Assembly: GCA_018650465.1 (NCBI GenBank)
Contig: JABIFY010000151.1
Location: forward strand, 1-37,962
DNA from: Alphaproteobacteria bacterium
GTDB taxonomy: Bacteria; Pseudomonadota; Alphaproteobacteria; UBA2966
DNA length: 37,962 nucleotides
Reading direction: 5' to 3'
The translations under genes were made by a program, and so were the position numbers. Under the pieces are notes generated by a model. It was not told the origin of the DNA, ran no database searches, and worked only from the letters and a program-made list of their open reading frames with translations. Numbering within the stretch: the stretch's first letter is position 1; each line of letters starts with the position of its first letter. Positions 16,818 to 21,324 of this stretch are shown piece by piece.

Positions 16818-16876
16818 GTCTGACAGGTTCCTGAAATGGGCCGCACAACTTTTTTGATATTTTGCAAGGTTTCAAG

Positions 16877-17887
16877 ATGACGACGTCCCGTGAAGAACAC
16901 CCCTTTGCTGCCTATGTACGTATCCTCGCCCGTGGCCGGACCATTTCGCGTGCTCTGACGCAAGACGAATCCCGCGATGCCATGGCCATGATCCTTGCCG
17001 GTGAGGTTGAAGACGTGCAACTTGGCGCTTTCTTGATGTTGATGCGCTACAAGGAAGAAACCGCCGAAGAAGTCGCCGGGTTTGTTGAAGCCTGTCGTGC
17101 AGCGCTGGATGTTCCGGAAGGGATCAGTGTTGATCTGGACTGGTCGTCTTATGCCGGCAAACGTCGCCAGCTGCCCTGGTTCATTCTGGCCGCCTTGTTG
17201 CTGGCCCAAAGCGGCGTCAAAATTTTCATGCATGGCACCGAAGGTCACACACCGGGCCGGATGTACACCCGCGAAACTCTTGAATTCATGGGCCTGCCGG
17301 TGGCAGAAACCCTGGCCGAGGCCGGAAAGCATATTGCACAAAGCAACTTTGGTTATGTGCCCCTGGAAGGTTTACTGCCGATCTTGCGTCGGATCATTGA
17401 TTTGCGACCCATACTGGGCTTGCGCTCACCCGTTCATACCATCGCGCGCATGATCAATCCTCTGGCTGCGCCTGCCATGATCCAGGGTGTGTTTCACCCG
17501 GGCTATACGGATACTCATCAAGGTGCAGCGGCGCTGATGGGCCAGGCGCACATGTCGGTTTTCAAGGGTGAGGGCGGAGAAATTGAACGTCGCCCCAACA
17601 AGCCACTGGTCGTCAAATCACTGCACGAGGGCGTCACGTCCGAACTGGAATGGCCGCCCTTGCTGTCTGAATCGCGCCAGCCCCATGATAACGATATGGA
17701 TACGTCTCGTCTGGCAGCCGTGTGGCGGGATGAACTTGAAGACGATTATGCCGTTGCTGCTGTCACTGGCACAGTGGCGCTGGCTTTGGCGACCATGGGC
17801 AGGGCCAGTGATCCAGCAGATGCTCAGGCTCAGGCGACAGCCATGTGGCAGGCCCGTGACCGTGGACGGTTTGGAGCCGCTGCCTGA
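16877..17887 (+). CDS. TrpD2/YbiB-like protein (anthranilate phosphoribosyltransferase fold)
   Basis: A 336-residue protein of the nucleoside phosphorylase/phosphoribosyltransferase class III fold. The N-terminal helical domain has the LTQDESRDAMAMILAGEV motif shared with TrpD. The PRPP-binding GTGGD loop of true TrpD is replaced by HGTEGHTPGR (119-128), so tryptophan synthesis is unlikely; this matches the TrpD2 group, whose E. coli member YbiB binds nucleic acid. The later VFKGEGGEIERRPNKP corresponds to the VHG-DGLDE region of TrpD. ATG 16877 follows AAGG. It lies within the dsr operon between dsrP and dsrN; such genes sometimes sit beside sirohaem or sulfite/nitrite reductase genes (from memory). 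Its role here is unknown. Confidence 0.85.
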   Translation: MTTSREEHPFAAYVRILARGRTISRALTQDESRDAMAMILAGEVEDVQLGAFLMLMRYKEETAEEVAGFVEACRAALDVPEGISVDLDWSSYAGKRRQLPWFILAALLLAQSGVKIFMHGTEGHTPGRMYTRETLEFMGLPVAETLAEAGKHIAQSNFGYVPLEGLLPILRRIIDLRPILGLRSPVHTIARMINPLAAPAMIQGVFHPGYTDTHQGAAALMGQAHMSVFKGEGGEIERRPNKPLVVKSLHEGVTSELEWPPLLSESRQPHDNDMDTSRLAAVWRDELEDDYAVAAVTGTVALALATMGRASDPADAQAQATAMWQARDRGRFGAAA

Positions 17888-17930: not shown

Positions 17931-19355
17931 ATGACACATTTCCTGGTTTCCGCGGCTCATAAATCATCGGGCAAGACCACCATATCGCTGGGACTGTGCG
18001 CCGCCTTTGCAGCGCGTGGACGCGTTGTTCAGCCATTCAAAAAGGGACCGGACTATATTGATCCCATGTGGCTGGGGCGGGCCGCCGGGCGGCCTTGTCA
18101 CAATCTTGATTTTTACACCCAGTCCCGTGATGAAATTACGGACGTCTATAGACGCATCTCAGCTGACGCTGACGTGACAGTTGTCGAAGGCAACAAGGGC
18201 CTCCATGACGGTATGGACCCGGCGGGTAGTGATTCTACCGGGGCCTTGGCTAACCATCTTGGTCTGCCCGTTGTGCTGGTCATTGACACACAAGGTATCA
18301 CCCGCGGCGTGGCTCCCTTGATCCTGGGCTACCAGGCTTTTGATCCAGACCTGAAAATCGCCGGGGTGATTCTGAACAAGGTTGCCGGGGATCGTCACGA
18401 AGGCAAACTGCATGCTGCCGTTGGACATTACACAGATATTCCGGTGCTGGGGGCTGTGCACAGGTCGCGGGACCTGGAAATCGAAGAACGCCACATCGGC
18501 CTGACGCCCACCAATGAAGACGTCGAGGCGAACCGCCGGATCAAGTGCATCGCGGATCATATCTCCGAACATGTCGATCTGGGGTTGTTACTGGCCATCA
18601 CGCGCGATCTGAAATCGGACCCGGCACCAGCGGCAACCGTTCGAACGACGGCACCGGTATCAATCCAGTCAAAACGTGTGCGCCTCGGTGTGGCGCGCGA
18701 TGCAGCCTTTGGGTTTTATTACGAAGCCGATCTTCAGGCACTGACCGAAGCCGGTGCCGATCTGATCTTTTTTGATACCCTGAAAGACAACGACCTGCCG
18801 GATGTCGATGGTCTGATCTTCAGTGGCGGATTTCCTGAAACACAAATGGAAAAGCTGGAAGCCAATTCCACCATGCGGGCACAAATCGCGGCGGCAATTG
18901 AAAACGGCATGCCGGCCTATGCGGAATGTGGTGGCCTGATGTATCTGGCCCGGCAAATAACGTGGCGCGGCAAGACCAGCGATATGGTCGGCGTTATCGG
19001 CGCCGACGTCGTGATGGAAGAACGCCCGGTTGGGCGGGGCTATGTGCGCCTGTCTGAGACCGATGGAGGGCTTTGGCCGATCACTGGATCAGCGTCAGAT
19101 GCAGAAATTCCAGCCCATGAATTTCACTATTCCCGCCTCGAAAATCTTGATCCCGGCACCCGTTTCGCCTATGAGGTCAAACGCGGAACAGGTGTAGATG
19201 GCGTGAATGACGGTATTGTTTACCGGAACCTTTTGGCCAGCTATGCTCATTTTCGTGATGTTGAGGATAATCAGTGGACCAGCCGGTTCGTAGATTTTGT
19301 TCGGCAGGTAAAACAGTCGACAACGATATCTTCTGAGAAAAGAGCAAACGCGTGA
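17931..19355 (+). CDS. dsrN: DsrN, sirohaem amidase (cobyrinate a,c-diamide synthase-like)
   Basis: A 474-residue glutamine-dependent amidotransferase of the CobB/CbiA family. In the dsr pathway it is proposed to convert sirohaem to the sirohaem amide of DsrAB. The N-terminal ATPase has the P-loop SAAHKSSGKTT (7-17) and the FKKGPDYIDP motif (36-45). The C-terminal class I glutaminase domain has its catalytic Cys333 in AYAECGGLMYL and a late PAHEFHYS stretch. Length fits CobB-like enzymes. The name rests on its place in the dsr operon; by sequence alone a cobalamin enzyme would be possible. The stop overlaps the cobA GTG start. Confidence 0.93.
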   Translation: MTHFLVSAAHKSSGKTTISLGLCAAFAARGRVVQPFKKGPDYIDPMWLGRAAGRPCHNLDFYTQSRDEITDVYRRISADADVTVVEGNKGLHDGMDPAGSDSTGALANHLGLPVVLVIDTQGITRGVAPLILGYQAFDPDLKIAGVILNKVAGDRHEGKLHAAVGHYTDIPVLGAVHRSRDLEIEERHIGLTPTNEDVEANRRIKCIADHISEHVDLGLLLAITRDLKSDPAPAATVRTTAPVSIQSKRVRLGVARDAAFGFYYEADLQALTEAGADLIFFDTLKDNDLPDVDGLIFSGGFPETQMEKLEANSTMRAQIAAAIENGMPAYAECGGLMYLARQITWRGKTSDMVGVIGADVVMEERPVGRGYVRLSETDGGLWPITGSASDAEIPAHEFHYSRLENLDPGTRFAYEVKRGTGVDGVNDGIVYRNLLASYAHFRDVEDNQWTSRFVDFVRQVKQSTTISSEKRANA

Positions 19356-20152
19356 GTGAAAATCCATCCGCCGATCCATCCCATGATCCCTCCCATGATC
19401 CGTCCGCTTCGGGCACAGTTTATCTGATCGGGGCAGGGCCTGGCGATCCGGACTTGTTAACCGTCAAGGCAGCGCGTTTGTTGTCTTCCGCCGATGTGAT
19501 CGTTTATGACCGGCTGGTGTCTGATGCTGTGATGGACCTGGTGCCCTCAACAGCACCGCGCATCTACGCAGGAAAAGCCTCTAAAAATCATTCCATGCCC
19601 CAACCAGACATCAACGCCTTGCTGGTCACCCTGGCGCAGGAGCACAAAACTGTCGTGCGTTTAAAGGGCGGCGATCCTTTTATCTTTGGCCGGGGCAGCG
19701 AAGAAGCCATTCACCTGGCTGAAAATGATGTGGCTTTTCAAATTGTGCCAGGCATCAGTGCGGCGTCTGGCTGCAGTGCGTACCTTGGTGTGCCGCTCAC
19801 CCATCGTGGTCTGGCCACTGGCGTGCGATATGTCACCGGGCATACCCAGGAAGAAGAACTTGATCTGGATTGGGAAAACCTGGCTGATCCCGATACGACC
19901 CTTGTGGTCTATATGGGTCTGGCCAATCTTGGTGCCATATCAGATCGCCTGATCGCAGCAGGGCTTTCACCGGACACACCCATTGCTGCCGTTGAGCGTG
20001 GCACCACGCCGCAGCAACGCCATTGCATCAGCACTCTGAAAAATGCCGTTGTCGATGTAACAAAAGCCGAGCTGGGACCGCCCTGTCTGATCGTCATAGG
20101 CAAGGTTGCAAGCATTGCCGGAACCTTGCAGTGGTGGCAACCGGGCGACTAA
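19352..20152 (+). CDS. cobA: Uroporphyrinogen-III C-methyltransferase (SUMT)
   Basis: A 266-residue S-adenosylmethionine-dependent enzyme that makes precorrin-2, the first step towards sirohaem. Motifs are GAGPGDPDLLT (27-37), VRLKGGDPFIFGRG (about 107-120), VPGISAASG and YMGLANL. There is no fused dehydrogenase/ferrochelatase domain, so the last steps must be encoded elsewhere. The start is GTG 19352, overlapping the dsrN stop. The first 20 residues contain a small repeat (DPSHDPSHDPS) encoded by near-identical 12-base units, not part of the enzyme fold. It is the last gene of the apparent dsr transcription unit and fits the sirohaem need of DsrAB. Confidence 0.93.
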   Translation: MSENPSADPSHDPSHDPSASGTVYLIGAGPGDPDLLTVKAARLLSSADVIVYDRLVSDAVMDLVPSTAPRIYAGKASKNHSMPQPDINALLVTLAQEHKTVVRLKGGDPFIFGRGSEEAIHLAENDVAFQIVPGISAASGCSAYLGVPLTHRGLATGVRYVTGHTQEEELDLDWENLADPDTTLVVYMGLANLGAISDRLIAAGLSPDTPIAAVERGTTPQQRHCISTLKNAVVDVTKAELGPPCLIVIGKVASIAGTLQWWQPGD

Positions 20153-20289
20153 TCACAAGTGACTAAAACCCTGCGGTTTGCTGTTCACAAATTGTTGCGG
20201 ACGACAGATTTTATTTCAGGGAATCTGCTTTTTGTGCTAAGGTTTTTCTATAGATATCGCTATGGATATCGAACGACTGGGAGGACAGG

Positions 20290-20575
20290 TATCTGCATGG
20301 AACCACCAGACAGTTGGCTTTCTCTTTCTGTTGAAAGAGGACGGTAGGCGATCTAACTCATATATGAATTGTTGTGGAATTTCTGTTGGTTAGCCAACTA
20401 AAAGTCCAAATCGATTCTGGATATTGATCGCCCCGCAGACAATTTAAACGGAACATCGGGCGGCTTTGCTTCGTCCGCTATCAAGTGCCCGGCTTATCAG
20501 TTGGGACAAGGCCTCAGTGCCAGATAAATGCCAGCCCCGCCCGGGGATGAAAACCGGGACGGGGCTTGCTTTTTG
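20290..20575 (+). ncRNA. Candidate structured RNA in the 491-base gap after cobA
   Basis: The gap 20153-20643 has no convincing gene (one 62-residue frame at 20159-20347 has no support). Several helices can be drawn: 20322-20328 with 20333-20339 (4-base loop); 20347-20353 GGCGATC with 20426-20432 GATCGCC, closing over a GTTGG/CCAAC hairpin at 20385-20398; and CGGGC 20457-20461 with GCCCG 20487-20491. The region ends in an intrinsic terminator. It may be a small RNA or the long 3' leader of the dsr transcript. It lacks the marks I know for RNase P RNA, SRP RNA or tmRNA; 6S RNA cannot be excluded. The 5' end is a guess. Confidence 0.3.
20533..20575 (+). terminator. Intrinsic terminator after the dsr operon
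   Basis: Bases 20533-20544 pair with 20554-20566 in a 12-bp G/C-rich stem with one bulged A (20559) and a 9-base loop, followed by TGCTTTTT. It is a likely end of transcripts coming from the dsr operon or from an RNA encoded in the gap. Confidence 0.8.
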
Positions 20576-20643
20576 GCGTTCAGGAAAATGAACTGTAGAT
20601 CAGGGCGGGGAATAACTAATCGCGTAGAGCTATTCAGGAAAGA

Positions 20644-21324
20644 CTATTCGGGAAGGGCCGGGGTCTTCTCCGCAAAGTGAGCCCGCCAGCGTTTGATGAT
20701 AATGGGCAGCAGGCCAACGGCGGCCAACATGCTGGCTGCCGTGACAATTTTCAGGACAAGATCCTGGCCACCTGTCGCCGCTTCTCTGCCAGCATAACCC
20801 ACATAGGTATAGGCCCAGGTGCCAGGCGCCATGCAGATAAAGGATGCGATTAAATAGTGCCGCATGGGAATGGCTGTCAGACCCAGTAAATAATTCAGGA
20901 TGTTAAAGGGGAAGACGGGCACCAGTCTGACAAAGGCCACAAACCGCCAGCCCTCGGCATCGACGCCTTCCTTGATGTGACCAAGCTTGCCACCGATTTT
21001 TGATGTGGTGAGATCGCCTGCGATATACCGGGCGATCAGGAAAGAAATAGAGGCACCAATGGTCGCGCCCGTCAAGGCAAGGAAGCCACCCAGTACAGGA
21101 CCAAACAATGCCCCGGACGCCAAAGTCAGCAATGACCCTGGCAGGCACAAAGGCACAGCAATAATATAAGTCAGAACAAAAACAATGGGTGCCCACATAC
21201 CGAATTCGTTGATGCGGTTTTCCAGAACATCTGAGTCCATCATATCACGCATGGACCACATCCAGATCATGGCGCCCACGAGGCAGGCAAAAACGGCAAT
21301 GCGAATAAGGCCCTTGGCGTTCAT
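20644..21324 (-). CDS. TVP38/TMEM64 (VTT domain) membrane protein
   Basis: A 226-residue inner-membrane protein of the DedA/VTT superfamily. The signature parts are LTLASGALFGPVLGGFLALTG (re-entrant loop region), SFLIARYIAGD and FVRLVPVFPFNILNYLLGL, with MAPGTWAYTYVGYAG near the end. Relatives are linked to lipid flipping or membrane homeostasis; the substrate is unknown. It overlaps the stop-side neighbour: its ATG (21322-21324) overlaps the TGA of the desaturase gene upstream, so the two are probably one operon. Confidence 0.9.
   Translation of the reverse strand: MNAKGLIRIAVFACLVGAMIWMWSMRDMMDSDVLENRINEFGMWAPIVFVLTYIIAVPLCLPGSLLTLASGALFGPVLGGFLALTGATIGASISFLIARYIAGDLTTSKIGGKLGHIKEGVDAEGWRFVAFVRLVPVFPFNILNYLLGLTAIPMRHYLIASFICMAPGTWAYTYVGYAGREAATGGQDLVLKIVTAASMLAAVGLLPIIIKRWRAHFAEKTPALPE

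Follow-up and report, generated by a model that had tools for sequence, protein, structure and literature searches.

The gap at positions 20153-20643 of the window (the whole 37,962-nucleotide stretch of alphaproteobacterial DNA analysed here), about 490 bases long, holds a structured RNA element, probably a small RNA gene, and this conserved element is very likely real. Searches with covariance models brought the total to 20 copies, one per genome, spread over 15 genera and 11 families of Alphaproteobacteria; one copy (L076) is only probable. The data are best explained by an unnamed family of alphaproteobacterial small RNA genes endowed with a ribosome-entry module at the 5′ end, a reading that we regard as probable.

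The gap follows an operon whose Pfam domains are Nitrate_red_gam, Fer4/CCG, Pyr_redox/Fer4_20, Fer4_11 and NrfD and, further on, a glycosyltransferase-3 family protein, GATase_3/CbiA and a tetrapyrrole methylase. We take these to be Dsr-type proteins, with Nitrate_red_gam as DsrM-like, Fer4/CCG as DsrK-like, Pyr_redox/Fer4_20 as DsrL-like, Fer4_11 as DsrO-like, NrfD as DsrP-like and GATase_3/CbiA as DsrN-like. The glycosyltransferase-family-3 gene, presumably TrpD2-like, is flanked in this operon by the DsrP-like and the DsrN-like gene (16862-17887, + strand). Elsewhere in the window, ARAGORN called an 86-nt tRNA-Ala (ggc) at 1672-1757 on the − strand, within a 392-aa ORF of the same strand; this call is possibly a false positive. 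Inside the gap, a conserved block at about 20231-20576 comprises a promoter-like start, several helices and a terminator. BLAST conservation with a genome of the same genus is restricted to 20231-20572, so that the functional unit stops short of both borders of the gap. The features are as follows:

19352-20152, + strand: tetrapyrrole-methylase (SUMT/cobA-like) gene, the 5′ border of the gap
20159-20347: nominal 62-codon ORF through the gap, with the frame and stop of the mini-ORF that starts at 20297
20232-20258, + strand: promoter-like start TTTGTGCTA..GTT.TT..ATAGATATC, conserved in the alignment with the same-genus copy L002
20253-20270, + strand: 5′ hairpin GATATC-GCTATG-GATATC just 5′ of the Shine-Dalgarno (sequence; alignment with L002, where both arms are kept and the loop differs)
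20279-20284, + strand: Shine-Dalgarno-like GGGAGG (GGAGG in 17 of the 20 copies)
20286-20295, + strand: small hairpin CAG-GTAT-CTG between the Shine-Dalgarno and the AUG (by eye)
20297-20347, + strand: mini-ORF MEPPDSWLSLSVERGR, then stop (19 of the 20 copies begin with M-x-P-P)
20303-20307, + strand: CCACC, nearly invariant, putative partner of GGAGG in stem P1 with an A.A mismatch
20320-20341, + strand: helix P2 (hairpin A), within the mini-ORF
20342-20435, + strand: helix P3, CGG plus GGCGATC with GATCGCC plus CCG, capped by a long inner hairpin (folds)
20457-20478, + strand: helix P3b, ends approximate (folds; one two-sided pair change against L002)
20488-20505, + strand: helix P4, CCCGGCT-TATC-AGTTGGG (folds)
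20510-20521, + strand: helix P5, short, three pairs in the window copy (folds)
20530-20574, + strand: helix P6, the intrinsic terminator with its T-run (sequence and folds)
20644-21324, − strand: VTT-domain (DedA-type) gene, convergent, the 3′ border of the gap

An earlier note on this DNA had described the gap as a structured region with a long-range GGCGATC/GATCGCC helix and a strong terminator. This description was borne out. The gap folds with a z-score of −3.45 against 100 dinucleotide shuffles, none of which was as good; in the minimum-energy fold, GGCGATC (20347-20353) is paired to GATCGCC (20426-20432), which forms part of helix P3; the terminator, a GC-rich hairpin followed by TTTTT at 20570-20574, is visible in the sequence and in the folds. 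The 20530-20574 hairpin was absent from the list of a simple terminator scan, perhaps because the loop range of the scan was only 3-8. This hairpin lies between convergent genes and the minus strand also has a T-rich flank, so that it may end the transcript of the VTT-domain gene as well. Z-scores against shuffles were −3.0 for the RNA of the window, −6.8 for L002 and −2.7 to −5.8 for six other copies. Single hairpins located 5′ of the terminator were mostly no better than shuffles (0 to 36 of 100 as good), in a scan that took the wrong hairpin as terminator in L023 and L073.

A BLAST search of 61 genomes, the own genome and relatives, yielded one other copy, in G001 of the same genus, 76% identical over query bases 79-420. 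In the pair alignment, the conserved block opens at TTTGTGCTA and closes in the terminator. A block conserved from promoter to terminator in a second genome leaves the proposal of the earlier note unrefuted on this point. When 15 genomes of the order were searched with a first model, R1, G004 yielded a third copy. A scan of genome contigs gave four stretches, of which two coincide with the G001 and G004 copies and two are chance. Model R2, built on the 5′ domain of three sequences, matched all 15 genomes of the order at E ≤ 10, and four matches were accepted (E 2.5e-7 or better); one of its copies lies outside the training set, in another family (32.5 bits, E 2.5e-7). The next-best R2 match in the order, L034 (E 6.8e-4), was rejected as repeat-like. 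At E ≤ 0.005, R2 matched 13 of 385 genomes of the class; seven were accepted and six judged to be chance at those places. With model R3, built from eight sequences, 11 of the 385 genomes were matched at E ≤ 0.01 and all were accepted. In the order of G220, R3 matched 2 of 24 genomes; in that of G120 it matched 6 of 36, among them all five of genus g113; and of 386 relatives of G222 it matched 10, three of them new. R3 scores of further copies were, among others, 46.7, 40.9, 38.0 and 37.9 bits.

The model searches were carried out within Alphaproteobacteria, and those of more than 40 genomes scored no more than 11 first-look candidates from each genome, so that absence of a copy is weak evidence. 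Pattern matches L019, L020, L026 and L029 and model matches L034-L049, L062, L065, L066 and L069-L072 were excluded from the counts as chance or repeat-like, for part of them on a reading by eye. L034, L045 and L062 have GC-rich, repeat-like hairpins (CCCCTCTCCCT...AGGGAGAGGGG type) that resemble P2 and account for weak matches to the models. The excluded L034 scores 26.5 bits with R3, above the retained L076 at 25.7 bits; L076 was kept because of its CATGACTCCACCGG and ACGG letters, and it is therefore only probable. The copy of G458 (L082) is seemingly cut after P2, past about 1590, by insertion-element-like sequence (by eye).

Identity with 6S or another known RNA, a point that the earlier note had advised checking, found no support: none of the 20 copies reached any gathering threshold of Rfam 15, including those for 6S, tmRNA, RNase P and SRP (the window and 19 other loci), and permissive scans of two copies gave sub-threshold matches only. 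The ORF of tmRNA ends in an ALAA-type tag; the mini-ORFs of the copies have no such tag at their end, and ARAGORN found no tmRNA in the window. A phage or plasmid origin was rejected as well. An exact 22-mer had no match in viral contigs; a viral match to a looser pattern lies within an ORF of a phage-like contig, is unmatched by R3 and was rejected. Comparison by blastn of the window, L068 and L067 RNAs and of the L068 flank with plasmids gave no match. No description of the RNA was found in the accessible text of the open-access literature searched.

Covarying pairs among relatives, looked for as the earlier note had advised, were found in helix P2. Two-sided changes were observed in 8 of the 9 P2 pairs in the 20 R3-aligned sequences. 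P1 and P2 together contain 41 double-change cells, all in P2, as compared with 11.5 ± 3.5 after shuffling (0 of 500 shuffles reach this value), and 91.9% of their cells pair versus 75.3% in shuffles and 42-58% in slid versions; the alignment had been made to fit this structure and is to that extent biased towards it. The number of double-change pairs is less striking (8 versus 5.3 shuffled; 19 of 500 shuffles do as well). In 14 of the 20 copies the outermost P2 pair is broken. In an earlier MAFFT alignment of three sequences, 4 of the 9 P2 pairs were changed on both sides, which 16 of 500 shuffles reach. The window and L002 RNAs fold alike, and RNAalifold on the two gave 81 pairs, seven of them changed on both sides. 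P1 (GGAGG/CCACC) displays no two-sided pair change among the 20 copies, and one of its pairs is broken in each of L023, L079 and L080; since P1 is nearly invariant, covariation lends it no support.

The helices downstream of P2 recur in the folds of the 17 full-length copies. P3 begins at the conserved CGG after P2, and a helix is found there in 16 of 17 folds (not L078); in L083 it is made by CGGUCCGG with CCGGACCG, in L084 by CGGC with GCCG. The GGCGATC/GATCGCC pairing of the window corresponds to this helix. P4 is formed in 15 folds (not L077 or L073) and P5 in about 11. The final GC-rich hairpin is present in all 17, which it was used to delimit, and several of the T-runs are short. P3 to P6 are based on single folds with limits set by hand, and are less secure than P2.

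Most copies are preceded by promoter-like sequences. The pattern TTGAC-N17-CAnnnT was found upstream of 14 of the 20 copies, as compared with a mean of 1.9 and a maximum of 6 in 300 rounds of single-base shuffles of the same 200-base regions (TTGAC with up to one mismatch, 16-18 bases, CAnnnT). This comparison is partly post hoc, as the sequences used for the count were those in which the pattern had been spotted by eye, and a single genus supplies five of the 14 copies. The spacing is 17 in 13 of the 14, the distance to the Shine-Dalgarno varies from 63 to 150 bases, and the matches at L033 and L084 may be chance. The pattern is absent upstream of the window, L002, L081, L074, L076 and L082 copies, and a promoter scan of the gap listed no sigma-70-like site. 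Taken with the conservation and the covarying pairs, the promoter-like sequences back the small RNA that the earlier note had suspected. In most hosts the element is quite likely a stand-alone small RNA gene. Transcription would probably start at its own promoter and end at its own terminator and, if the promoter pattern is right, would give an RNA of about 310 nt in the window and about 230-390 nt elsewhere.

The genomic surroundings vary widely. Within about 1.5 kb, neighbours were identified from Pfam domains or by visual inspection for 16 of the 18 copies outside the genus of the window, and none beside L076 and L084. The two copies of the window's genus (g1) have the same position, 3′ of dsr-type genes and cobA; the G001 copy follows cobA and a DsrN-like ORF and has an OMP-decarboxylase gene on its other flank. 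No dsr gene is found among the neighbours of the other 16. The tie to sulfur metabolism put forward in the earlier note was consequently rejected, since dsr-type neighbours occur only in the window's genus among copies with identified neighbours; L033 adjoins a sufS-like gene (by eye). The remaining neighbours include lipB and fliN; GNAT; TauD (two genera, differing arrangements); MFS with a 3-hydroxyisobutyrate-dehydrogenase-like gene; EamA with a BPD permease; an ion channel; D-Ala-D-Ala carboxypeptidase; aconitase X; and a vanillate demethylase-like gene. In genus g113 (L068 and L077-L080), the RNA lies just upstream of a same-strand RNase_T exonuclease gene in 5 of 5 genomes (Pfam on L068; by eye for L077-L080). 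No neighbour is common to several families, which makes cis control unlikely.

These data bear on three alternative explanations. That the gap is no more than a 3′ UTR of the dsr operon with its terminator appears highly improbable: read-through from the operon is possible, as no + strand terminator is listed between cobA and the RNA, and two copies do lie 3′ of dsr-type genes, but at least 16 of the 20 copies adjoin other genes, and neither the promoter pattern at 14 copies nor the covariation of P2 fits such a UTR. A leader-peptide attenuator of the downstream gene is also very unlikely. Its hallmarks, a mini-ORF with an internal hairpin and then a terminator as in classical attenuators, are there, and the same-strand exonuclease gene comes next in all five g113 genomes; the next gene of the window is, however, convergent, and the identified neighbours vary among genera and are consistent only within g113. 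Attenuation through pairing of P2 with the terminator was not favoured: read by eye, the arms lack complementarity in both the window and L068, but it looks possible in the GC-rich copies. The patchy distribution (2 of 24 genomes in one order) and the changing neighbours would be compatible with a repeat or a mobile element of the REP or MITE type, yet we give this origin hardly any weight: R3 gave a single match in each of the 11 class genomes that it matched, the next R2 match in the window's own genome reaches only 14.7 bits, the position is identical in both g1 genomes, and no transposase occurs among the Pfam-scanned neighbours.

The more serious alternative to the small RNA with a ribosome-entry module concerns the 5′ module itself, which consists of a Shine-Dalgarno, usually a small hairpin, and an AUG opening an M-x-P-P mini-ORF. 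In a purely non-coding structured RNA, the GGGAGG, AUG and CCACC would be kept for folding or protein binding, without translation. The peptide past M-x-P-P is not conserved while P2 inside the ORF covaries, and the small hairpin, whose letters vary among copies, re-forms in most of them (by eye), as expected of such an RNA. We rejected a conserved peptide: past M-x-P-P, close pairs differ mainly by non-synonymous changes (three synonymous and four non-synonymous between the window and L002; one and three between L068 and L078), and the mini-ORF varies from 7 to 36 codons, being open at the contig end in L074. However, every one of the 20 copies has an AUG in frame with CC.CC (M-x-P-P in 19, MQELPP in L075), and the Shine-Dalgarno departs from GGAGG only in L023 (AGAGG) and in L079 and L080 (GGAGA). 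L075 has lost the aligned AUG but has another in-frame AUG 12 nt before CCACC, instead of 6 nt in the others, and L076 lacks the small hairpin but keeps the Shine-Dalgarno and the AUG. We therefore consider a purely non-coding RNA rather unlikely, and the AUG is probably used by ribosomes. The start being conserved and the peptide not, translation may be incidental to the RNA.

The Pro-Pro motif was also considered in terms of EF-P. It is followed by D, G or N in 15 of the 20 copies (D in six, G in six, N in three; M in three and K in two); as background, D, N and G follow CCNCCN in 13-15% of cases, and the 20 copies are related and not independent draws. As far as the accessible text of PMC4140641 goes, in E. 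coli lacking EF-P the motifs PPD and PPN were found only among pausing motifs, hydrophobic residues after PP gave no pausing, and PPK does not pause when preceded by Asn. EPPM is present in three g113 copies, which speaks against a universal pause, and NPPK in one copy. EF-P pausing was not chosen as the main reading on account of these copies, and because RNA conservation alone could yield the same letters. It is unlikely that the RNA is a ribosome-capture sensor, in which initiation at the hairpin-spaced Shine-Dalgarno would lead immediately to a Pro-Pro pause at codons 3-5. The dwell time would then be a readout of EF-P activity or of translation capacity and would govern how the RNA folds, how stable it is or how it acts in trans, and the peptide would be irrelevant.

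Among the closest known systems are dual-function or leader-peptide small RNAs such as rnTrpL/peTrpL of Sinorhizobium (PMC7298713). RNAs of this kind are short and, like the predicted window RNA, combine a Shine-Dalgarno and a very small ORF with strong hairpins and a terminator, but the family of the window RNA has no amino-acid enrichment, no fixed downstream operon and no conserved peptide past M-x-P-P. The window RNA also resembles the GC-IGR uORF motifs, which, in the available parts of PMC8632094 and PMC11109978, have a conserved start codon and Shine-Dalgarno within a terminator-ended structured RNA; those motifs have a consistent downstream gene, whereas this family has none across genera, and none of the motifs matches the window RNA by the text descriptions given there. 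The short ORF of the mgtQ type is similar in that a few codons overlap alternative hairpins, but mgtQ acts in cis on mgtB, according to the accessible portion of PMC8092293, unlike the trans role proposed here.

Under the preferred reading of a small RNA with a ribosome-entry module, the transcript would fold into P1 (Shine-Dalgarno with CCACC), P2, P3, P3b, P4, P5 and P6, and its 5′ end would serve for ribosome entry through the GGGAGG, usually the small hairpin, and the AUG of the M-x-P-P mini-ORF. Closed P1 would hide the Shine-Dalgarno, and a bound ribosome would open P1 and run into P2. The RNA would most likely be a trans-acting regulator whose folding or stability is set by ribosome engagement of the 5′ module; that it works as a ribosome-dependent switch is a tentative proposal. 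It is uncommon for a multi-helix RNA a few hundred bases long to occur in 11 alphaproteobacterial families and have no match in Rfam, and it is unusual for a Shine-Dalgarno-AUG-Pro-Pro start to be conserved when the peptide is not. With the sequences and models, the RNA can be tested directly in culturable relatives, and annotators would have a means to mark loci that are otherwise taken for empty gaps.
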